64,000 nt of DNA from Pantoea phytobeneficialis (lineage in GTDB: Bacteria; Pseudomonadota; Gammaproteobacteria; Enterobacterales; Enterobacteriaceae): contig NZ_CP024636.1 in the NCBI RefSeq assembly GCF_009728735.1, forward strand, positions 3,076,155 to 3,140,154, in the 5' to 3' direction. This document shows, piece by piece, positions 26,530-61,115 of this stretch. The position numbers and the translations under genes were made by a program. The notes under the pieces were generated by a model that saw nothing but the letters and a program-made list of their open reading frames with translations, did no database searches and had not been told where the DNA came from. Position 1 is the first letter of the stretch. Each line of letters begins with the position of its first letter.

Positions 26530-28176
26530 ATGAAAACCCTCAAAGTTGGCGAATTTTTGTTGATGCGTTTACAGCAAGCGGGGATCCGGCACCTGTTTGG
26601 CGTGCCGGGGGATTACAATTTACAGTTTCTCGATAGCGTCATTGCGCATCCCGATATCACCTGGGTCGGCTGCGCTAACGAGCTGAATGCGGCCTATGCG
26701 GCGGATGGTTATGGCCGTTGTAACGGCGCTGCCGCCTTGCTGACCACTTTCGGCGTCGGCGAGTTAAGTGCGATCAACGGTATCGCTGGCAGTTACGCCG
26801 AATATGTACCGGTGATTCATATCGTGGGTGCACCGGCCAGCCAGGTACAGAGCCAGGGGGATTGTGTCCATCATTCTCTGGGCGATGGCGATTTCCGTCA
26901 CTTCAGCCGTATGGCGCAGGAGGTGAGTGCGGCGAGCGCGGTGCTGACCGCAGAGAATGCGGTACAGGAAATCGATCGCGTGATGGGTGAAGCCCTGTAT
27001 CAACACCGCCCTGGTTATTTGCTGTTGGCGGTCGATGTTGCTCAGGCCGAGGTCACCTTACCGCTGCCATCCTCTGCCATCACGTCGCTTCCTTCCGCGG
27101 TAGATGCCTTTGCGACAGCGGCGGAAGCTATGCTGTCATCGGCTCAACATGTGGCGCTGCTGGCCGATTTCCTTGCCGCGCGCTGGCAACTGCAATCCCC
27201 CCTGGCTGCCCTGCGTCAGCTGCGTGCCATTCCTGCCGCCACCCTGTTGATGGGCAAAGGCGTGCTGGATGAGCAGCAGCCAGGCTTTGTCGGCACCTAT
27301 GCCGGGGAGGGCAGTACGCCAGCGGTGCGGGCGGCCATAGAAGAAACTGACGTGACTGTCTGCGTCGGTGTTCGTTTCACCGATACCTTAACCGCCGGTT
27401 TTACCCAGCAGCTCCCCACAGAAAAACTTATCGACCTGCAACCGTTCCATGCTGTGGTTGCCGGGGAAACCTTCTCGCCCTTAAGCATGGCAGAAGCGCT
27501 GGGCGTGCTGGAACCTTTGTTCCGACGTTATGGCGAACGTTGGGCTATCGGTGGCATGGCGACACGGGAAGATACATCGGATGATGATGCTTTCATCAGT
27601 CAGCATGCCTTCTGGCAGGCAATGCAGCGTTTCCTGCTGCCAGGTGATATTATCCTTGCCGATCAAGGTACTGCCGCCTTTGGTGCCGCCGCTTTACGCC
27701 TCCCCGAGGATGTGCAATTGCTGGTTCAGCCGCTCTGGGGTTCGATTGGCTATACTTTACCCGCCGCCTTTGGTGCGCAAACCGCGCAGCCGCAACGGCG
27801 GGTAATTCTCATCATCGGCGACGGTTCGGCTCAGTTAACCATCCAGGAGCTGGGATCCATGCAGCGCGATGGTCAGCAGCCGATTATTTTTCTTCTCAAT
27901 AATGAAGGTTATACCGTCGAACGCGCGATTCATGGCGCGCATCAGCGTTACAACGACATTGCGCAGTGGAACTGGACTGCGCTGCCGCAGGCGCTCAGTC
28001 TGACGGGAGAAGCGCAAAGCTGGCGCGTCAGCGAAACGGTGCAACTGGAGGCGGTGATGGCACGGCTGGCGAATAATCAGCGTTTGTCGCTGGTGGAAGT
28101 GGTGCTGGATAAAGAAGATATCCCACCATTGCTGCGTAAAGTGACTGCCTCGCTGCATCAGCGCAACGGCGGCTGA
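26530..28176 (+). CDS. ipdC: indolepyruvate/phenylpyruvate decarboxylase
   Basis: 548 residues; the Enterobacter cloacae enzyme, recalled, is about 552. This thiamine-diphosphate enzyme decarboxylates indole-3-pyruvate to indole-3-acetaldehyde, the key step of the indolepyruvate route to indole-3-acetic acid. Catalytic residues are visible: D28 (VPGDYN), E51 (CANELNAAYAADGYGR), the His pair in CVHHSLGDGDF, the ThDP motif GDGSAQLTIQELG...NNEGYTVE, and the glutamate after it. It has its own promoter gap (215 bases) and terminator, with glk next. Position beside glk is typical of Pantoea. Confidence 0.93.
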   Translation: MKTLKVGEFLLMRLQQAGIRHLFGVPGDYNLQFLDSVIAHPDITWVGCANELNAAYAADGYGRCNGAAALLTTFGVGELSAINGIAGSYAEYVPVIHIVGAPASQVQSQGDCVHHSLGDGDFRHFSRMAQEVSAASAVLTAENAVQEIDRVMGEALYQHRPGYLLLAVDVAQAEVTLPLPSSAITSLPSAVDAFATAAEAMLSSAQHVALLADFLAARWQLQSPLAALRQLRAIPAATLLMGKGVLDEQQPGFVGTYAGEGSTPAVRAAIEETDVTVCVGVRFTDTLTAGFTQQLPTEKLIDLQPFHAVVAGETFSPLSMAEALGVLEPLFRRYGERWAIGGMATREDTSDDDAFISQHAFWQAMQRFLLPGDIILADQGTAAFGAAALRLPEDVQLLVQPLWGSIGYTLPAAFGAQTAQPQRRVILIIGDGSAQLTIQELGSMQRDGQQPIIFLLNNEGYTVERAIHGAHQRYNDIAQWNWTALPQALSLTGEAQSWRVSETVQLEAVMARLANNQRLSLVEVVLDKEDIPPLLRKVTASLHQRNGG

Positions 28177-29311: not shown

Positions 29312-29340
29312 AGGCGAGTGGCCTCCAGCGCTGCTCGCCT
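29312..29340. terminator. probable terminator between glk and ypdB
   Basis: Stem AGGCGAG / CTCGCCT with a 15-base loop in the 36-base gap between two convergent stops. It lacks a strong T-run, so efficiency is uncertain. Confidence 0.5.
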
Positions 29341-30068
29341 TATAAGCGCATCAGTTGCCGAAACGCTTTCACCTTGCTACGACTCACCGGCACCTGCGCA
29401 TCCAAATCGCGTAATTTCACCAGATAAGTATTGTTGAACCAGGGTTCTATCTCGCGGATTTTACTCAGGTTGACGCAGTATGAACGGTGGCAGCGAAAGA
29501 AAGCCGTCTCGGGTAAGCGGCTACAAAACTCGCTGATGGTCATCGACATCACATACGCTTCGCGTCGCGTATACACGAACGTCAGTTTCTCGTGGGCTTC
29601 AACATAATAAATATCGTTAATATCGGTGACGATGATGCGCTCATCCTTCACCAGATTTACCGTCTGCTGGGCAATAGCCTGCGGGCTGCTGGCGGGGGAC
29701 TGCTGCTGTTGCCAGCTCGCCTCCAGCTTGTTAAGCATGGTGATGATGCGTGATTCGTGATACGGCTTCAGAATGTAGTCAAAAGCCTCCAGCTCGAAGG
29801 CTTCTACCGCATGCTCTTTCCACGCGGTAATAAACACAATTAACGGCTTATGGGCGAATTGATTGATGTTTTGCGCCAACAACATGCCATCCAGCGAGGG
29901 GATATTGATGTCGAGGAAAATGACATCGACCCGATGGTTTTGCAGATACTTCAGGACTTCCAGTCCGTCATCAAAACAGGCTTCGATGGTGATCTGGCTG
30001 TGATGCTGAATCATCCAGCTCAGTTCCTGCTGTGCCAGAAACTCGTCTTCGACAATAATGGCTTTCAC
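29340..30068 (-). CDS. ypdB: LytTR-type response regulator YpdB (PyrR)
   Basis: 242 residues. The receiver domain has E7, D8 and phosphoacceptor D53 ([11 protein letters not shown]), with T ([13 protein letters not shown]) and K (YILKPY). A LytTR DNA-binding domain follows (about 140-242; [27 protein letters not shown]). It starts with GTG, overlapping the ypdA stop (GTGA). In E. coli YpdA/YpdB answers extracellular pyruvate and activates yhjX; a yhjX gene with matching promoter boxes is about 11 kb away in this window. Confidence 0.95.
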
Positions 30069-31780
30069 GCTGAAGTCTCCGTCACGCTGGCCTGTGTTGC
30101 TGGTAGTCGATGGCCATGTTTGCTGAGGGTAAAGGAGATTTCGGTGCCAGGTTGATGGCGCTCTATGGTCAATCCCTGGCCGGAGAGCAACTTCACCCGA
30201 TGATGTACATTCAACAGGCCGATTTTATTACCGGGCATCTCATCCCGCGCCACGCGTGCCATTACCTCTTCACTGATTCCGGCTCCGGTATCACGTACCG
30301 CCACCCGCACCCGATCACCGAGATCTTTGACGCTGAGAGTCACCACGCCTTTGCCGCGACAGGGCTGGATGCCGTGCACGATGGCATTCTCGACCAGCGG
30401 CTGAATCAGCAGACTGGGCAAGGTAAAATGCAGGTCTTCGTCGATGTCATAGATCATCGATAGCTTGTCACCAAAGCGTGCCTGTTCGATGGCAATGTAA
30501 TCCTTCACCTGCCACAGCTCTTTTTTGATATCGATTGGCTCGTCGTCATTCAGTTCCAGGTTGTAACGCAAATAGCGCGACAGATTAATTACCAACTGGC
30601 GTGCGGTATCCGGGTTCATTCGAATCGATGCTGAAATGGCGTTCAGGGCGTTAAACAGGAAATGTGGGTTGATCTTGCTTTGTAAGGCACGCAGTTCAGC
30701 TTTGTTTGCCATCTCACGCAGTTGCTCGGCGCGGGACACTTCCAACTGGGTAGAGATGATTTGCGACAGCCCCACGGCCATCTCTTTTAGTGATCCGGTG
30801 ATACGGTGAGCGCGGCGATAATAGATTTTTAGCGTGCCGGTGACTTCCCCTTTTTCCAAAAGGGGAATAACCAGCATTGAGTGAATATCCTTGGTACGGT
30901 GCGCTTCGTCATTATTCTTGATGATGATTTTACCGCTGGTGATCGCCTGCGCGGTGGTCGGGCTGAGGCCGTCGTCGCCATTCTGATAGTTTTGCGCGCC
31001 GTAGCCGACGTAGGCGAGAATCTGTTTGGTATTGGTGATCGCCACGGCGTCAGCATTGATTTCACAACGAATGATGTCGCATACCTGATGCAACGAGTGG
31101 CTGTTAATCTGGCGGAACAACGGCAGCGTCTTGTTGGCAATTTCCAGCGCCAGCTTGGCCTGTCGCGCGGCAATCGCCTCTTTTTCACCTTCGACACTCT
31201 GTACCAGCAACACAATCAAACCGATGCTGGAAGCGCCGAGGATCATCGGCAGCGCAATCTCGGAAACAATATCCAGGCCGAGTGACATCGGTCTGGCCCA
31301 CAGCACAATCAGCAGCATGGTGAGGGTTTCACATAACATGCCGCCGAGAATACCGGCGCGCCAACGCTGTTCCTTGCTCACCCGACGATTAATCGCCCCC
31401 GAGGCGATACCGGCAATGATGCTGGTAATCAGGCAGGGAATCGAGGTAATGCCATGAATATCAATCAGAAAACGATGCAAGCCGGCAATCACCCCGGTGG
31501 CGATGCCGACCCACGGGCCAAACAAAATGCCACCTGACATTACGGCAATCACGCGCACGTTAAGCAGTGAACCATCGACATCAATACCTGACCAGGTGCT
31601 GAACAGGGCAAACAGCGAAAAAATCGCTGTCACCACCACTTTTTCCTGACGCGAGTGTTCATCTTTCTGTAGTAACTGGCGAAATGCGCGCGTCCGGGTG
31701 AGAAAGAACAGGCAAATCAGCATCAGCGCGGCGCGGTCAAATACCGCCAGCAGCATGTCAAAGTGAGAAGGCACAGGCAT
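30065..31780 (-). CDS. ypdA: LytS-type pyruvate-sensing histidine kinase YpdA (PyrS)
   Basis: 571 residues, recalled E. coli YpdA 565, similar throughout. Domains: a 5TM LytS-type membrane sensor (about 1-205, with [20 protein letters not shown]), a GAF domain (about 220-350), a His_kinase phosphoacceptor region with [17 protein letters not shown], and an ATPase domain with [12 protein letters not shown] and [11 protein letters not shown]. The phosphorylated histidine is the H of NPHF. It is the first gene of the coupled ypdA-ypdB pair. The 228-base gap upstream separates it from a divergent acetyltransferase gene. Confidence 0.95.
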
Positions 31781-32651: not shown

Positions 32652-33884
32652 ATGGCTGATAACAGCACACCCCGTCGTTTTTCTCGTATTGACCGCCTTC
32701 CCCCTTACGTTTTTAACATCACCGCTGAATTGAAGATGGCTGCGCGTCGGCGCGGCGAAGACATCATCGATTTTTCGATGGGGAACCCGGATGGCGCGAC
32801 GCCGCCGCATATCGTAGAAAAACTGTGCCAGGTGGCCCAGCGCGAGGACACTCACGGCTACTCCACCTCGAAAGGGATCCCGCGCCTGCGTCGCGCGATT
32901 TCACGCTGGTACGCTGACCGTTATCAGGTGGATATCGATCCTGAGTCTGAAGCCATTGTCACCATCGGTTCGAAAGAGGGACTGGCGCATTTGATGCTGG
33001 CAACCCTCGACCACGGCGACACCGTGTTGGTGCCGAACCCCAGCTACCCTATTCATATTTACGGCGCGGTGATTGCCGGGGCGCAGGTCCGTTCTGTGCC
33101 GCTGGTGGCGGGCGTCGATTTCTTTAACGAGCTGGAACGCGCCATTCGTGAAAGCTACCCAAAACCGAAGATGATGATCCTCGGTTTCCCGTCCAACCCG
33201 ACTGCGCAATGCGTGGAACTGGATTTCTTCGAACGCGTGATTGCGCTGGCGAAGCAGTACAACGTGTTGGTGATCCACGACCTGGCCTATGCCGACATTG
33301 TCTACGATGGCTGGAAAGCGCCGTCGATCATGCAGGTGCCGGGTGCACGCGATGTCGCGGTTGAGTTTTTCACCCTGTCGAAAAGCTACAACATGGCGGG
33401 CTGGCGTATCGGTTTTATGGTCGGCAATAAAGAGTTGGTTTCGGCGCTGGCGCGTATCAAGAGTTACCACGATTACGGCACCTTTACGCCGTTGCAGGTG
33501 GCAGCAATCGCTGCGCTGGAAGGGGATCAGCAATGTGTACGCGATATCGCCGAGCAGTACAAACGTCGTCGTGATGTGCTGGTGAAAGGGCTGCACGAAG
33601 CGGGATGGATGGTCGAGATGCCCAAAGCCTCGATGTACGTCTGGGCGAAAATTCCTGACCATTACGCGCATCTTGGTTCGCTGGAGTTTGCCAAACGTTT
33701 ATTGCAGGAGGCCAAAGTGTGCGTGTCGCCAGGTATCGGCTTTGGTGACTACGGTGACACCCATGTGCGTTTTGCGCTGATTGAGAACAGCGATCGTATT
33801 CGTCAGGCGGTGCGGGGAATTAAAGCGATGTTCCGTGCCGACGGGATTTTGCCCGGAACCGTGAAAACCACAGAAGAAGAATAG
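32652..33884 (+). CDS. alaC: glutamate-pyruvate aminotransferase AlaC
   Basis: 410 residues; recalled E. coli AlaC is 412 and nearly identical over the core. This class I PLP aminotransferase makes L-alanine from pyruvate and glutamate. The PLP lysine lies in [43 protein letters not shown] and the arginine of HVRFALIEN are also present. CCAGAGGACATC precedes the ATG. It is next to the pyruvate-sensing ypdAB pair, as in E. coli. A structured leader lies just upstream. Confidence 0.97.
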
Positions 33885-34203: not shown

Positions 34204-35232
34204 TTAGTGCACTTCAATTTCCGGGATCGCCGACATGCCAACGCGTAATTGCGCCAGATCGGCCTGGTTGGGATCCAGCACGATTTTCACCGGCAGGCGT
34301 TGCACCACCTTGGTGTAGTTGCCTGTCGCGTTATCGGGTGAAATGGCGGAAAAGGTTGCTCCCGTGGCGGGCGCAATGCTGTCAACATGGCCGGAAAATG
34401 TCTTGCCCGGCAGGGCATCCACCCGCACCAACACCTTTTGCCCCTCACGCACATCCGTCAACTGCGTTTCCAGATAGTTGGCGGTGATATAGGTTTGCTG
34501 CAACGGCACCACCGCCAGCAAACGGGTTCCCGCCGTAACATAGGCCCCGAGTCGCACCGAACGTTGTCCCACCATGCCATCGACCGGGGCGACGATACGG
34601 GTGTAGGACAGATTAAGCTGTGCCTGATCGACGCTGGCTTGTGCGGCGGTGACATCCGCTTCTGCCTGACGCAATGCTGCCTGCAAAACACCAACTTCCT
34701 TCACGGCGGCGGCCAGCGCCGCTTCGCTCTGGCGTACGGTGGCGGCAGCGGAGCGCTGAGTAGATGTGGCTTTTTGCTGCTCATCGGCGGCGATGGTGCC
34801 ACTTTTATACAGGCTGTCGTAACGCGCCGCACTCTGACCGGCATACTGAGCTGAAGCCTGGCTGGCGGCCAGTGTCGCTTTTGCCTGGTCAATGGTGGAT
34901 TGCTGTTGCTCCAGTTGCGCCTGGCTGCTCAGACGCTTGGCTTCACTGACCTGTAAATTGGCTTTGGCGGTTTCCAGCGCGACGCGATAATCACGGTCGT
35001 CGAGCGTCGCCAGCAGTTCACCCGCTTTGACGCGCTGGTTATCCTGCACATTAACGCTGGCGATATAGCCGGAGACTTTCGGCGCAACCAGCGTGTAATC
35101 CGCATTGACGTAAGCATCATCCGTTCGGTGATCATTGGCGGTCATCGACGACCAGACGAAAAAAGCCATGATCAGCAACACCAGCAGTAAGGCGCTCAGC
35201 AGCACCGTTCTTTTCAGAGCAAAAGCACGCAT
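34204..35232 (-). CDS. HlyD/EmrA-family membrane fusion protein
   Basis: 342 residues. One N-terminal membrane anchor (about 9-29), a lipoyl-like half (DDAYVNADYTLVAPKVSGYI), a long alanine/glutamine-rich coiled-coil hairpin (about 75-195), the second lipoyl half (APVDGMVGQRSVRLGAYV) and a beta-barrel domain. It would link an inner-membrane exporter to an outer-membrane channel. It is translated with the DHA2 transporter gene five bases upstream. EmrA-like by layout; the substrate is unknown. Confidence 0.9.
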   Translation of the reverse strand: MRAFALKRTVLLSALLLVLLIMAFFVWSSMTANDHRTDDAYVNADYTLVAPKVSGYIASVNVQDNQRVKAGELLATLDDRDYRVALETAKANLQVSEAKRLSSQAQLEQQQSTIDQAKATLAASQASAQYAGQSAARYDSLYKSGTIAADEQQKATSTQRSAAATVRQSEAALAAAVKEVGVLQAALRQAEADVTAAQASVDQAQLNLSYTRIVAPVDGMVGQRSVRLGAYVTAGTRLLAVVPLQQTYITANYLETQLTDVREGQKVLVRVDALPGKTFSGHVDSIAPATGATFSAISPDNATGNYTKVVQRLPVKIVLDPNQADLAQLRVGMSAIPEIEVH

Positions 35233-35237
35233 ATCAG

Positions 35238-36839
35238 TTATCTCGACGTGTTTGTAACAGGTTGAATCAGAGTTTGTGGCGGCCAGACACGTTTTGGCAG
35301 CCAGGCGGTGAGCAGCAGAAGCAGTGCGGCGAAACCGATCAGCATCACATAGCTATCACTCAAACTGAGCACCATCGCCTGATGCTTCAGCAGACTGGCG
35401 AAACCGCTCAGGTTTTCACTGCTGCTGGCGCTGCCATCCGGCAAAAGCGGGAAGCTGCTGCTTGCCTGTGCGCTGGTGGGTGCGGTCATCAACCACGAAC
35501 GGCTGGCGGCGTTACCCACCAGGATATTGGAATGAAACTGTTCGCGGTGGCTGATAAACCACTCCACCAGCGTACTGGCGGCGACGCTGGAGAAGCCGCG
35601 CACGGTATTAAACATCGCGGAGGCAAAAGGACCTTCCGGCGGGGCAACGACGCTGGTGGCGCTCATCAACACCGGCAAAATCACCATTGGCTGACCAAAA
35701 GCCTGCAAAATTTGTATCAGCCAGAAATTTTGTCGCCCCCAGTCGGTGGTGATTTGCATCCCGAGCAGGCAGGAGGTCACCAGCAATGCCACGCCTGCGG
35801 TCAGCATCCAGCGGCAGTCAATCCAGCGGATATTCAGCAGCGCGGCAATCAACGGTGCGATTAACAACTGCGGTAAACCCACCGTCAGTGCCAGCGGGGC
35901 AAATTGCAGGGTACGGAAACCCTCGATCTGGCCAAAGTAAGCCGAGGGTAGGGCTGAACCGGAAAGCGACAGAATCAGTACCCCGGCCAGTGCCAGCAGA
36001 CCGTGCGCGAGGTTGTGGCGTTGCAGCATCTGCAACTTGAACAATGGCAACGGGTGAAACCATTCATTAATAAAGAACACAATCAGCAATGCCGCGGCGC
36101 TAAATAATAGCGCGACGATTAATGGCGAGCTGAGCCAGTCCAATCGTTCACCCTGTGTCAGTGCGAGGATCAGCAACGCGATACCGCTGCAACCGGTCAG
36201 CATGCCGAACAGATCCATTTGCTGGAAACGCTCGAAACGCAGTGGGTCCTGGGGCAGGCCCCAGCCAATCAGCAACATGGCTACCAGCATAGCGGGCACC
36301 ACTTGCCAGAACACGAACATCCAACTGACGTCGTCGGTCCAGAAAGCAGCCAATGAGGCGGCAAGATTGGGGCCGAAGGTCGCTGTCAGCGCGTAAGCGC
36401 CAAGGCCATAAAGTTTGATCGGCGGAGGCAAGAAACGTAACGCGACCGTCATCAGTAACGGGGGCAGAGCGCCACCAAACAGCCCCTGGATAACGCGCAG
36501 GGTGATAAATAAGGTGGCATTGGGTAGCAGCGGCAGCAGAATGCCGGTGATCATGAAGCCAGCCGAGACGGTAAGCGCAAAACGGCGCAGCGAGAAGGTG
36601 ACGGCAAACCAGGGCGCAATCATCATGGTGGCCACTTCGGCAGCCTGGTAAGCAGAAATGATCCAGCTACCCTGATCGTAACTGATGCCAATGGCTGCAC
36701 GGATATCCGCCAGAGCAATATCGGTGACGCGATCGTTTAAACCGGCGGTCAGGGCGGCAATCAGCACACCCACCAGACCGAGCGCAAGGCGCAGGGTAAA
36801 AGGATGGGGTGCCGGGGCCGCTGCGGGCTGGGCATTCAT
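35238..36839 (-). CDS. DHA2-type MFS drug transporter, EmrB-like
   Basis: 533 residues from the ATG beginning MNAQPAAAP; the upstream extension runs across the operator region and has no better ribosome site. About fourteen hydrophobic segments are seen, the DHA2 number. The family's usual LDxTIVNVALP motif of the first helix is replaced by LNDRVTDIALADI, so it belongs to a divergent subgroup, and it has a polar insertion rich in Ser before the last helix. With the adjoining EmrA-like protein it should form a tripartite exporter. It is divergent from an IclR regulator with two shared boxes between them. Confidence 0.88.
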   Translation of the reverse strand: MNAQPAAAPAPHPFTLRLALGLVGVLIAALTAGLNDRVTDIALADIRAAIGISYDQGSWIISAYQAAEVATMMIAPWFAVTFSLRRFALTVSAGFMITGILLPLLPNATLFITLRVIQGLFGGALPPLLMTVALRFLPPPIKLYGLGAYALTATFGPNLAASLAAFWTDDVSWMFVFWQVVPAMLVAMLLIGWGLPQDPLRFERFQQMDLFGMLTGCSGIALLILALTQGERLDWLSSPLIVALLFSAAALLIVFFINEWFHPLPLFKLQMLQRHNLAHGLLALAGVLILSLSGSALPSAYFGQIEGFRTLQFAPLALTVGLPQLLIAPLIAALLNIRWIDCRWMLTAGVALLVTSCLLGMQITTDWGRQNFWLIQILQAFGQPMVILPVLMSATSVVAPPEGPFASAMFNTVRGFSSVAASTLVEWFISHREQFHSNILVGNAASRSWLMTAPTSAQASSSFPLLPDGSASSSENLSGFASLLKHQAMVLSLSDSYVMLIGFAALLLLLTAWLPKRVWPPQTLIQPVTNTSR

Positions 36840-36866
36840 AGCAGGTTTCTCGTTATGTTGATGCAG

Positions 36867-36885
36867 TGTATTGCGATGTGATACA
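36867..36885. promoter_or_regulatory. putative IclR-regulator box 1 in the pump/regulator intergenic region
   Basis: TGTATTGCGATGTGATACA: a 19-base site with TGTAT / ATACA ends. It is the same as box 2 except for one base and lies 28 bases upstream of the pump gene start. The spacing of 44 bases between boxes is close to four helical turns. Confidence 0.7.
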
Positions 36886-36910
36886 GATCGCATATTACAT
36901 CCCGGTATGT

Positions 36911-36929
36911 TGTATTGCAATGTGATACA
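36911..36929. promoter_or_regulatory. putative IclR-regulator box 2
   Basis: TGTATTGCAATGTGATACA, one base different from box 1, in the same orientation, 58 bases upstream of the regulator's ATG. Placement suits control of the pump operon and autoregulation. Confidence 0.7.
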
Positions 36930-36986
36930 GGGTGTAAAAGTGCGGTTAATCGCGCTAAAGTAGGGCAGGCCACAAAGGATCGCACT

Positions 36987-37772
36987 ATGGTTGAAATCCC
37001 CTCCTGCCGTGAGGATGAAAAAGCGGGCGGCATTCAGGTCATCGCCCGCGCGGCAAAAATTCTAAATGCATTGGGTGAGCATCCCGGCGGTATGAGCCTG
37101 GGGGAGATTGCTCAGGCGGTGGATTTACCCCGTTCGACGGTGCAACGTATTGTCGCCGCGTTGGATAATGCGCAACTGGTACGCAGCAGTGGCGCAGGCG
37201 GATTACGCCTCGGTCCGGCGCTGCTGAAGCTGATCTCCAGCGTGCACAGTGACGTGGTTGAAGTGGTGCGTCCTTTTCTTGAACGACTTTCCGCAGAGAC
37301 GAATGAAACTGTCTCACTGGCACGCGCCAGTGGTACCCAACTGGCTATCGTCCATTATGTGGTGGCGTCACGCGAACTGCGTGTGGTGCCGCGCATGGGG
37401 CTGAATCTGCCGCTCTACAGCACCTCGGGCGGTCGGGCCTTACTGGCGCTGGAGAGCGATGAAGATGTCAGGGTAATTGTCGGCGAAGCCTATAAAGAGC
37501 TGACGGAGATGACCATCAAAACGCTGCCGCAGTTGCTGGAGTTGATTGGTGAAGTGCGCAAAACCGGCTTCTCCTACGATCGTGGTGAGACGCTGGAGGG
37601 CATCTCAACCATGGCGGTGGCGATCGACACTTTATTTGGCCGCTTCTCTATTTCACTGCTGGTGCCGACAGCGCGTTTTCGTAAACACGAGGCGCGTTAT
37701 TGTGAGGAAATCCTGAAGTGTAAAGAGGCGCTGACCCGCGAAATTGGCAAAATGACCGCTGTTGAAGGATAA
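36987..37772 (+). CDS. IclR-family transcriptional regulator
   Basis: 261 residues from the ATG with AAGGA upstream; an earlier in-frame start would lie inside the operator region. The N-terminal winged helix (about 17-80) has GIQVIARAAKILNALGEHPGG and LPRSTVQRIVAALD. The C-terminal effector domain (about 95-255) has LPLYSTSGGRALLAL and the arginine-rich end. It probably represses the divergent EmrAB-like pump. The effector is unknown. A universal-stress gene follows after six bases, so the two are likely one transcript. Confidence 0.92.
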   Translation: MVEIPSCREDEKAGGIQVIARAAKILNALGEHPGGMSLGEIAQAVDLPRSTVQRIVAALDNAQLVRSSGAGGLRLGPALLKLISSVHSDVVEVVRPFLERLSAETNETVSLARASGTQLAIVHYVVASRELRVVPRMGLNLPLYSTSGGRALLALESDEDVRVIVGEAYKELTEMTIKTLPQLLELIGEVRKTGFSYDRGETLEGISTMAVAIDTLFGRFSISLLVPTARFRKHEARYCEEILKCKEALTREIGKMTAVEG

Positions 37773-41031: not shown

Positions 41032-42249
41032 TTAACTGCGATGTAGTACCGGCTCCTGTACATTGTGGCGTTGCGGCAGGCGGATGCTGAGTGACAGGAA
41101 CAATGAAATCACCAGCAAGGTCATAATCAGGCTGAAGGTGATAGTGAAGCCACCAAACACCGATGCCACCAGTGATCCCAGCACGCTACCGATACCAAAA
41201 CCCAGATAAATCAGGCCGTAATTTTTGGTCAGGTTGTTCAGGCCGAAGAAATCGCTGACCAGTGACGGGAAGACGGTGATGGTGCCGCCAAAGCTGAATG
41301 CCACGCAGGCCAGGGAAATAAAGAAGGTGGATTCATTCATGTGGGTGAAAAGCAAAATGCTCATCCCTGCCAGTGAAACCACCTGTGCCAGCGAAATCAC
41401 CCGGATACGCGCCATTTTATCGGACAGCACACCCAACACCAGACGACCACTCAGGTTAGCGATAGCAATCACCGTCACCGCATTCGCCGCAGTTTGTGTG
41501 CTGAGATGAACCAGACCCTCGCCAATATCTTTCGCCACGCCAATCACATACAAACCGCTCATGCAGGCAGTGAGGAACATCAGCGCCAGCATCCAGTATT
41601 GTGGTAAACGGATGGACTGCGCCAGCGTGTAATCTTTGCTTTGCACGGCGGAGGTGCTGCTGCTCTGCTGGACCGGTGCATCACGCATCAGCAGTGCGCC
41701 GAGGATGATCATGGTCATTGCCAGCACCCCCCAAATCACGAAGGTGTTTTCCAGCCCCTGGCTGTTGAGCAGCGCGCCGCAGATAAATTTAAAGCCCAGG
41801 CTACCCAAACCGTAGGCACCGATGGCACAGGCGGAGATCACCCCTTTACGTTCCGGGAACCATTTTACGCAGTTGGATAAGGTCATCAGATAACCGGCAC
41901 CATCAGCCAGCCCGACCAGTACCCCTGCGCTGAGGTACAGCATCATCAGGTTATCCGCATGCGCGGTTAACCAGAAACCCAGCGCCATCAATACACCGGC
42001 ACCAATGGTGACATTACGTACGCCGAAGCGTTCCTGTAATTTACCGGCCAGCGATGAAGCAATCGCCAGGCCGAGGCTCAGTAAACCAAACGAGAACGCG
42101 ACCTGACTGACCGGGGCATCAAGCTTATGCGCCAGTTGGCCGTTAAACAGGCTCCAGGTGTAGACCGAACCTAACGCAAATTGAGTCAAAATGGTGCCAG
42201 CCAGGGTGAGCCAGCGGGTGCGTTGATAATTTGATGTGGTGGTTTGCAT
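41032..42249 (-). CDS. yhjX: MFS transporter YhjX (oxalate/formate antiporter-type, pyruvate-responsive)
   Basis: 405 residues from the second in-frame ATG, which has GGGAGAG at good distance; the first ATG overlaps that ribosome site. Recalled E. coli YhjX is 402 residues and similar throughout: SNYQRTRWLTL, FALGSVYTWSLFNG, DAPVSQVAFSFGLLSLGLAI, DGAGYLMTLSNCVKWFPERKG. About twelve hydrophobic segments. In E. coli it is the main target of YpdA/YpdB and answers pyruvate. Two YpdB-type boxes lie about 100-130 bases upstream. In E. coli the two loci are far apart; here ypdAB is about 11 kb away. Confidence 0.93.
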   Translation of the reverse strand: MQTTTSNYQRTRWLTLAGTILTQFALGSVYTWSLFNGQLAHKLDAPVSQVAFSFGLLSLGLAIASSLAGKLQERFGVRNVTIGAGVLMALGFWLTAHADNLMMLYLSAGVLVGLADGAGYLMTLSNCVKWFPERKGVISACAIGAYGLGSLGFKFICGALLNSQGLENTFVIWGVLAMTMIILGALLMRDAPVQQSSSTSAVQSKDYTLAQSIRLPQYWMLALMFLTACMSGLYVIGVAKDIGEGLVHLSTQTAANAVTVIAIANLSGRLVLGVLSDKMARIRVISLAQVVSLAGMSILLFTHMNESTFFISLACVAFSFGGTITVFPSLVSDFFGLNNLTKNYGLIYLGFGIGSVLGSLVASVFGGFTITFSLIMTLLVISLFLSLSIRLPQRHNVQEPVLHRS

Positions 42250-42347
42250 ATTTTTCTCTCCCATCCGGGAATTCGGAAACTGAAGCGATGGTAATCCGCT
42301 CGCGCGTAGGCGTGGGGAGAAAAGGCGTGAGAGGCTGTAGCGACGGA

Positions 42348-42378
42348 ATGAAATGCAGTGAAACCGGTATGAATGGCA
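42348..42378 (-). promoter_or_regulatory. pair of YpdB (PyrR)-type direct repeats upstream of yhjX
   Basis: On the minus strand: TGCCATTCAT, 11 bases, then TGCATTTCAT. The E. coli YpdB site at yhjX is recalled as GGCATTTCAT-N11-GGCATTTCAT; the two units here match it at seven and nine of ten positions with exactly the same spacing and orientation. Confidence 0.8.
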
Positions 42379-42528: not shown

Positions 42529-42768
42529 ATGAAAGACCGAGCATATGAATCCGCGTCGAGTGAGGATGAAGTTTGCTGCATCATCGGTCAGGCGGTGATC
42601 GAGTTAAGCGATGAACATCAACCAGTGAATAAATCCACGCTGTCGTTGAAACTACTGGCAATGGCCGATCGCGACAGAGACGATGAGCGCATACTGCTTT
42701 ACTGGATCGCCAGAAAAGCGATCAATCAACCTCACCAGCTCAATATCGGCGTGCAGGGCTGGCGCTAA
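42529..42768 (+). CDS. AriR/YmgB-like small regulatory protein
   Basis: 79 residues with an excellent ribosome site (GGAGGAAAT-ATG). The central pattern IIGQAVIELSDEHQPVNKSTLSLKLL followed by a second helix ending IARKAI fits the YmgB/AriR family of small helical proteins linked to biofilm and acid resistance through the Rcs and BluF pathways in E. coli. Family assignment is by eye from a short sequence. Single gene, with its promoter in the yhjX/ariR gap. Confidence 0.72.
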   Translation: MKDRAYESASSEDEVCCIIGQAVIELSDEHQPVNKSTLSLKLLAMADRDRDDERILLYWIARKAINQPHQLNIGVQGWR

Positions 42769-60566: not shown

Positions 60567-61115
60567 TCAAGGCAATTCTGGCGGTTGCCACTCTTCCACT
60601 TCAATCAATACCAGCAAGGCTGCATCGCCACCGAACAATTTTGGTGCCTGATGAAACGCCATCACCCACGGATGTTGTGCCAGCCACAGCGGCGTTTGCT
60701 GCTTGAGGATGTGTTTGCCGTGCCCGGTCATCACACTGGCGCAAAACAGGTGCTCGCGCCGACAGGCGGCGATTAGCGCACCCAGCTCCTGCTTGGCTTG
60801 CATCTGGGTTAAGCCGTGCAGATCGAGAAAGATCTCCGGGGTGTAGTCGCCACGCCGCAGTTTTTTCAACTCATAATGGCTGACATCGGCGCGCACGTAA
60901 CGCACCGGCCCGTCGCTGGACAGCAGCGGCTGAAACTCGTCGGAGAAATAATGGCTATTATCGGCCTGTTCGGAAAGCAGCCTTTTCAGCGGAACTTCAC
61001 GCGTTTTCACCACCGGTTTATGCACGATGGTGTCCTGTTTCAGCTTGCGTGTTCCGGTCATTAACTGGCGGAACAGCGCCTGATCGTCCTGGCTTAGCGG
61101 CGTCTTTTTACTCAT
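60567..61115 (-). CDS. smrB: ribosome rescue endonuclease SmrB
   Basis: 182 residues (recalled E. coli 183). Helical N-terminus that binds the collided-ribosome interface, then the Smr domain (about 95-175) with catalytic [15 protein letters not shown] and the GHG motif ([17 protein letters not shown]). It cuts mRNA between stalled and collided ribosomes. It is divergent from prmB; PrmB also acts on the ribosome. Confidence 0.96.

Follow-up and report, generated by a model that had tools for sequence, protein, structure and literature searches.

Upstream of the transporter gene yhjX, in a 5.7-Mb Pantoea genome, lies a pair of direct repeats which raises the question of whether the regulator YpdB binds there and, if so, through how many half-sites. 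The window, as we call the whole stretch of 64,000 nucleotides analysed (C1:3076155-3140154), contains both decamers of the original prediction, in the same orientation and with exactly 11 bases between them. The pair reads TGCCATTCAT-ACCGGTTTCAC-TGCATTTCAT on the minus strand (42348-42378), the decamers TGCCATTCAT and TGCATTTCAT being separated by the 11 bases of ACCGGTTTCAC, and stands directly upstream of the open reading frame of yhjX (41032-42264, minus strand). This gene was reportedly first described as a target in a 2013 study by Fried et al. In E. coli, yhjX is induced by pyruvate (PMC4847170, PMC5552118), with a 678-fold induction at 3 mM (PMC7660256), and YpdB binds to a site A and, depending on A, to a site B (PMC4847170).

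The locus and its repeat pair

The window contains the elements of the E. coli YpdA/YpdB-yhjX system: an adjacent kinase-regulator pair with the expected domains, an orthologue of yhjX and, upstream of it, direct half-sites in one orientation with an 11-base spacer (Table 1). The window YhjX is 73% identical to E. coli YhjX (293/400) and 100% identical to YhjX of Pantoea sp. AS-PWVM4; it scores above the cut-off of NCBIfam TIGR00890 and NF049980 and matches Pfam MFS_1, and the next-best match elsewhere in the genome is 25% identical. We consider the ATG at 42249 a likelier start than 42264, because a start at 42264 overlaps a good ribosome-binding sequence. The genes ypdA and ypdB overlap by 4 bases, and each product is 76% identical to its E. 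coli counterpart (427/564 for YpdA and 185/242 for YpdB, with 78/99 positions in the LytTR part of the latter), while AlaC is 92% identical to E. coli AlaC. The candidate -10 element lies 42 bases past the start of box 3, in columns of moderate conservation where relatives show, by eye, TTATnnT.

Table 1. Features of the yhjX-ypdAB locus, in window coordinates
Feature	Position	Strand	Basis or remark
Box 1, upstream half-site, TGCCATTCATACC	42366..42378	-	first decamer of the original prediction
Box 2, middle half-site, TGCATTTCATTCC	42345..42357	-	second decamer of the original prediction; equivalent of E. coli site A
Box 3, promoter-proximal half-site, AGCCTCTCACGCC, degenerate	42324..42336	-	equivalent of E. 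coli site B
Candidate -10 element, TTACCAT	42288..42294	-	putative
Candidate ribosome-binding sequence, GGGAGAG	42256..42262	-	putative, from reading the sequence
yhjX, MFS transporter, 405 aa from ATG 42249	41032..42249	-	NCBIfam, Pfam, identity
ypdB (pyrR), LytTR response regulator	29340..30068	-	domains Response_reg and LytTR
ypdA (pyrS), LytS-type sensor kinase	30065..31780	-	domains 5TM-5TMR_LYT, GAF, His_kinase, HATPase_c
alaC, alanine transaminase	32652..33884	+	NCBIfam NF006033, 868 bits (cut-off 647)

The surroundings hold other genes as well. A 79-residue open reading frame (42529-42768, plus strand), present in 46 of the 109 loci examined, is divergent from yhjX and has the upstream region in common with it; no NCBIfam or Pfam family was found for this frame. 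Between alaC and yhjX (34204-37772) stand an EmrA-type adaptor, an MFS pump and an IclR-type regulator, a set detected in many Pantoea and Erwinia loci. Near ypdAB, at 26530-28176, there is a thiamine-diphosphate enzyme with three TPP domains, which we presume to be perhaps an indolepyruvate decarboxylase.

Comparison with the published E. coli decamer GGCATTTCAT alone fails to set the pair apart from chance, because the window pair differs from a pair of such decamers at 4 of 20 positions and another place in the window (60651-60681, minus strand) ties with it; no window match to the exact published pair exists at three or fewer mismatches. The tie warns against reliance on that E. coli consensus by itself. 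For a degenerate pattern, 100 shuffles contained no match, but this pattern had been fitted to the site. Fairer than either test is a matrix of 13 bases, built from 51 yhjX upstream regions outside Pantoea and scored over 127,974 window positions: the two window copies, box 2 with 21.7 and box 1 with 17.0, are the top two, and the third-best position scores 11.9. With the same scan, the full three-box array at yhjX (see below) scores 41.1 and the next non-overlapping array in the window -15.8, none other coming near the array at yhjX. In the whole genome, the pattern GCNNTTCAT-N12-GCNNTTCAT has a single match with zero mismatches, which is the window site; with one mismatch allowed it has 12 further places, and a backwards control pattern has 2 in all. 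Inspected by eye under a strict pattern, and unscored, none of these 12 places carries the nCC extension after the first half-site. We judge from its conservation, described below, that the pair is more than chance, though not by the published decamer alone.

The original prediction took the pair for the published arrangement, A-N11-B. Its half-site core and its 11-base spacer are those of the published sites, but the pair aligns with site A and a box upstream of A: the common GCATTTCATTCC anchors the second decamer on E. coli site A, the first decamer being the upstream box, and the alignment also places the equivalent of site B. A distant blastn search of the window intergenic region against E. 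coli gave no match, and the comparison was made with the published E. coli upstream sequence. Against GGCATTTCAT the A equivalent matches at 9/10 positions and the B equivalent, AGCCTCTCAC, at 6/10, and the window does not present A and B both near GGCATTTCAT. Set against a three-box array, the window shows clear boxes 1 and 2 and, with a matrix score of 2.3 (p = 7e-4 at fixed offset), a box 3 that is weak but detectable.

Half-sites upstream of yhjX in other genomes

A third half-site is present in nearly every yhjX upstream region scanned or aligned. Three boxes at a period of 21 occur in 46 of 51 non-Pantoea upstream regions (40 from different genera, E. coli and ten others), each box with at least 9/10 matches to a relaxed consensus, and five regions miss this rule; at 15 other periods (14 to 29) the count is 0/51, the consensus having been drawn from the same sequences that it counts and being shared by the period controls. 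In an alignment of 52 upstream regions, which like the 51 are roughly, not strictly, one per genus, the mean pairwise column identity is 0.80, 0.91 and 0.80 for boxes 1, 2 and 3, whereas the upstream flank has 0.29 and the two spacers have 0.33 and 0.37, figures to be read with the caveat that the columns are not independent because the upstream regions are related. Conservation in this alignment extends beyond the published decamer into nCC. When the alignment was anchored on A and B only, the offset of -21 came top of 216 (6.53, against a mean of 2.57 and a standard deviation of 0.59), followed by the overlapping offset of -20 with 5.35; 51 of the 52 regions entered this comparison, the window itself being left out because its best pair is box 1 plus box 2. 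The E. coli yhjX upstream region also carries box 1 (CGTCATTCATTCC, aligned with TGCCATTCATACC of the window), and of 5426 E. coli genomes 5346 have a 56-base E. coli stretch, with an identity of at least 99% in 3577 and of 95-99% in 1769. The position, the spacing and the conservation of the three boxes are matters of direct observation.

Two genomes depart from the common layout. In G317 a second yhjX-like gene (L190), 61% identical to that of the window, has four consecutive 21-bp boxes upstream. In G026 (L173, L191) yhjX is found as two partial matches far apart, of which the piece bearing the start keeps the upstream boxes.

As had been anticipated, the repeat is conserved upstream of yhjX in close relatives, boxes 1 and 2 being kept in 30 Pantoea-clade upstream regions, where column identity is 0.89, 0.89 and 0.72 for boxes 1 to 3 and 0.27 in the flank; in 11 upstream regions from Erwinia and relatives the corresponding values for the boxes are 0.75, 0.95 and 0.94. 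By matrix score, the median of box 3 is 6.6 in 32 Pantoea-clade regions (3 of them labelled as other taxa) versus 18.5 in the 51 others, and box 3 reaches p < 0.001 in 26/32 versus 50/51, whereas the medians of box 1 (17.0 versus 16.8) and box 2 (21.2 versus 21.4) show no difference. Because scores and identity of box 3 are lower there than in the others, we assign to the Pantoea clade what, by these comparisons, is a weakened promoter-proximal box. Loss of the sensor BtsS was considered as the cause of this decay and found unsupported, as a good box 3 persists in some genera whose only LytS kinase is of the YpdA type; genus g116 (L098-L101) is such a case.

Linkage to ypdAB and the second pyruvate system

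ORF coordinates confirm that yhjX and ypdAB are about 11 kb apart, with alaC between them. In the family, YhjX-like proteins (E <= 1e-100) and YpdA (E <= 1e-150) are each found in 192 of 392 genomes; the two genome lists are nearly alike by eye, with some genomes in one list only. Linkage was counted in the 120 genomes that have both genes placed among the matches listed (149 for YhjX, 150 for YpdA) and not in all 192: yhjX and ypdA are within 14 kb on the same strand in 18, among which are the 5 of the window's genus without exception; in 37 a single contig carries both at a distance of over 490 kb, and in 65 they are on different contigs, from which no distance is obtainable. Within the 10-kb flanks of 80 named yhjX loci, alaC is found in 43 and ypdA in 17, flanks often ending before ypdA.

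In a further class of loci (class 2), a transporter 44-48% identical to the window YhjX stands beside ypdAB. All 14 have ypdB in the same 4-kb locus, and in the nine where YpdA could also be located the gap to ypdA does not exceed 1,520 bases; a further six loci (L172-L175, L190, L191) are outside these 14. Three boxes at 21 bp are present in 13/14, and none of the other periods between 14 and 29 gives such an array. In half of the loci (seven of 14) the 3' end of ypdB runs into box 1, and there protein conservation could account for the conservation of the box; in the other seven the box lies outside ypdB. A target close to the regulator genes is marked for Yersinia and Aeromonas in Table 1 of PMC5552118, the text of which says of Aeromonas that no YpdA-type homologue was found. 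The Yersinia, Aeromonas and class-2 genomes are alike in having a YhjX-like transporter near the regulator, and we infer that the class-2 arrangement is the published Yersinia case; in class 2, however, the more distant transporter directly follows ypdB, whereas the window yhjX is some 11 kb away.

In Pantoea and its relatives, then, the linkage is real and has been conserved, but it is not new in kind, given the proximity published for Yersinia and Aeromonas, the class-2 loci, and the divergent position of alaC next to ypdA in E. coli. The local module for pyruvate sensing, transport and use that had been proposed from it is accordingly true as a linkage but ordinary: a special role based on alaC was rejected, as alaC adjoins ypdA in E. 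coli too, and the window offers no second three-box array with a score near that at yhjX. Likewise, transport and use of pyruvate by YhjX holds only in part, since a triple mutant indicates that YhjX can mediate pyruvate uptake while its precise function is called elusive (PMC7730263), and export has been suggested (PMC9765748). The NCBIfam name of the family is L-lactate transporter.

E. coli has a second pyruvate system, BtsS/BtsR with the transporter BtsT. Of 40 Pantoea genomes, 37 gave exactly one LytS-type sensor domain (PF07694), three gave none, and no genome gave two; in the four genomes where places could be compared, this sole domain lies in ypdA. A single LytTR protein of the window genome, YpdB, is over the cut-off, and one weak match falls just under it (21.6 versus 22.6 bits). 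The best BtsT match in this genome is 59% identical and resembles CstA, compared with 80-100% identity for the BtsT matches listed for other genera. Because of this single LytS domain, the single LytTR protein and the CstA-like nature of the BtsT match, Pantoea appears to be without BtsSR and BtsT, and YpdAB appears to be its only LytS-type system; organisms with the YpdA type only are given as 1.7% in PMC5552118.

The btsT set comprised 31 loci (L194-L224), 30 of them from the 87 genomes with a match plus one from E. coli, and represents the closest relatives of E. coli BtsT. Three direct ACCRCTYA boxes with a period of 20-21 precede btsT in 30 of the 31, each box with at least 7/8 matches, and in the remaining one three boxes are found at 6/8 or better; no three-box array was found in this set at ten other period pairs, nor in 20 Markov resamplings. 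We take ACCRCTYA to be the BtsR half-site consensus, the published form of which is presumably two-box. The two systems are thus alike in having a LytTR regulator of a pyruvate transporter with three direct boxes upstream, and differ in the half-site, in the transporter family and in that BtsS/BtsR-btsT was not found in the window genome. Since btsT upstream regions show three boxes too, both of the enteric LytTR pyruvate regulators may as a rule have three-box arrays.

The array as a probable YpdB operator

The register conservation, the ypdA-ypdB pair and the identity of YpdB to its E. coli counterpart all support the original reading of the pair as a YpdB target, and we regard it as very probably the operator through which YpdB acts on yhjX. 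The stronger statement, that it is a YpdB (PyrR) operator of yhjX and at the same time part of a three-box array, we hold at a probability of about 75%. The locus resembles that of E. coli in sensor, regulator, target, half-site core, 11-base spacing and an operator placed upstream of yhjX. It differs in that the upstream box and A form the good pair while B is degenerate, whereas the E. coli model names A plus B, and further in that yhjX is linked to ypdAB and in the apparent lack of the BtsS partner system.

According to the mechanism that we propose, the operator would consist of three direct half-sites (about KGYMNTTCATnCC) with a period of 21 bp, that is, two helical turns, and box 3 would immediately precede the expected -35 region. 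In response to pyruvate, phosphorylated YpdB would first take the middle box (E. coli site A); further YpdB molecules, on the same side of the helix, would then bind cooperatively to the upstream and the promoter-proximal boxes, and the filled boxes would recruit RNA polymerase. In Pantoea, as the promoter-proximal box is weakened and the other two are kept, the stable pair would be box 1 plus A and not A plus B. Binding of YpdB to box 1, the order of binding and the effect of a weakened box 3 are what we infer.

The E. coli data bear on this mechanism and on its nearest rival, a two-site operator as published, in which each lineage uses two neighbouring boxes (A plus B in most lineages, box 1 plus A in Pantoea) and the third is an alternative register or a leftover. 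In the available parts of PMC4847170, sites A and B are the only ones named, and a two-site 'AB-BA' scheme is put forward there as a possible general LytTR mechanism. The fragment studied, which is said to cover every nucleotide protected from DNase I, includes box 1; surface plasmon resonance resolved two binding modes, mutation of site A abolished all binding with box 1 intact, and mutation of site B left a single mode with A and box 1 intact (PMC4847170). As the A mutation lost everything and the B mutation left one mode, box 1 shows no independent binding in the data seen from that source, which is the strongest evidence against the three-box mechanism; it would suit a high-affinity A in the centre, flanked by weak boxes, but also a silent box 1. 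The two resolved modes and the single one without B, together with the two good boxes that remain in Pantoea beside a weak box 3, speak for two sites. Box 1 is, however, conserved as much as box 3 (0.80 each), and all three boxes are kept in 46/51 upstream regions, unlike a leftover, so that we regard the two-site operator as unlikely, if still deserving of attention. We recognised no description of a third box in the literature compared on YpdB/PyrSR, LytTR repeats and BtsR/YehT, a comparison with the 2013 and 2019 primary papers outside it.

Box 1 might instead belong to another factor or to another promoter, and its consensus does depart from A and B at positions 4-5, which are CA or CG and not AT; a small gene divergent from yhjX in Pantoea would also suit this. 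But box 1 has the TTCATnCC core, the orientation and the exact 21-bp period of the other boxes, and in E. coli no divergent promoter is needed because yhjX and the gene upstream of it, yhjY, share a strand, which makes this explanation highly improbable. That the repeat has no function in Pantoea and its resemblance is due to chance, as its distance from the published consensus and the tie at 60651 could suggest, is scarcely credible: its copies hold the top two matrix scores of the window, it is the only exact match to the pattern in the genome, and in the 30 Pantoea-clade regions boxes 1 and 2 stand far above their flank in identity.

Beyond the single locus, we see about even odds that the enteric LytTR pyruvate regulators, YpdB at yhjX and BtsR at btsT, act on three-box arrays and that decay of box 3 has retuned the switch in Pantoea. 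If true, cooperative filling of three sites would make the switch steeper and more pulse-like, and three boxes would explain why E. coli binding is totally lost without the central site A. The two-site kinetic model would then be incomplete and the half-site mutants would need to be read again, in a class of regulators, LytTR, that controls toxin, competence and nutrient functions. Pantoea, in which box 3 is weakened and a second pyruvate sensor is apparently lacking, would offer a natural experiment on such a switch.
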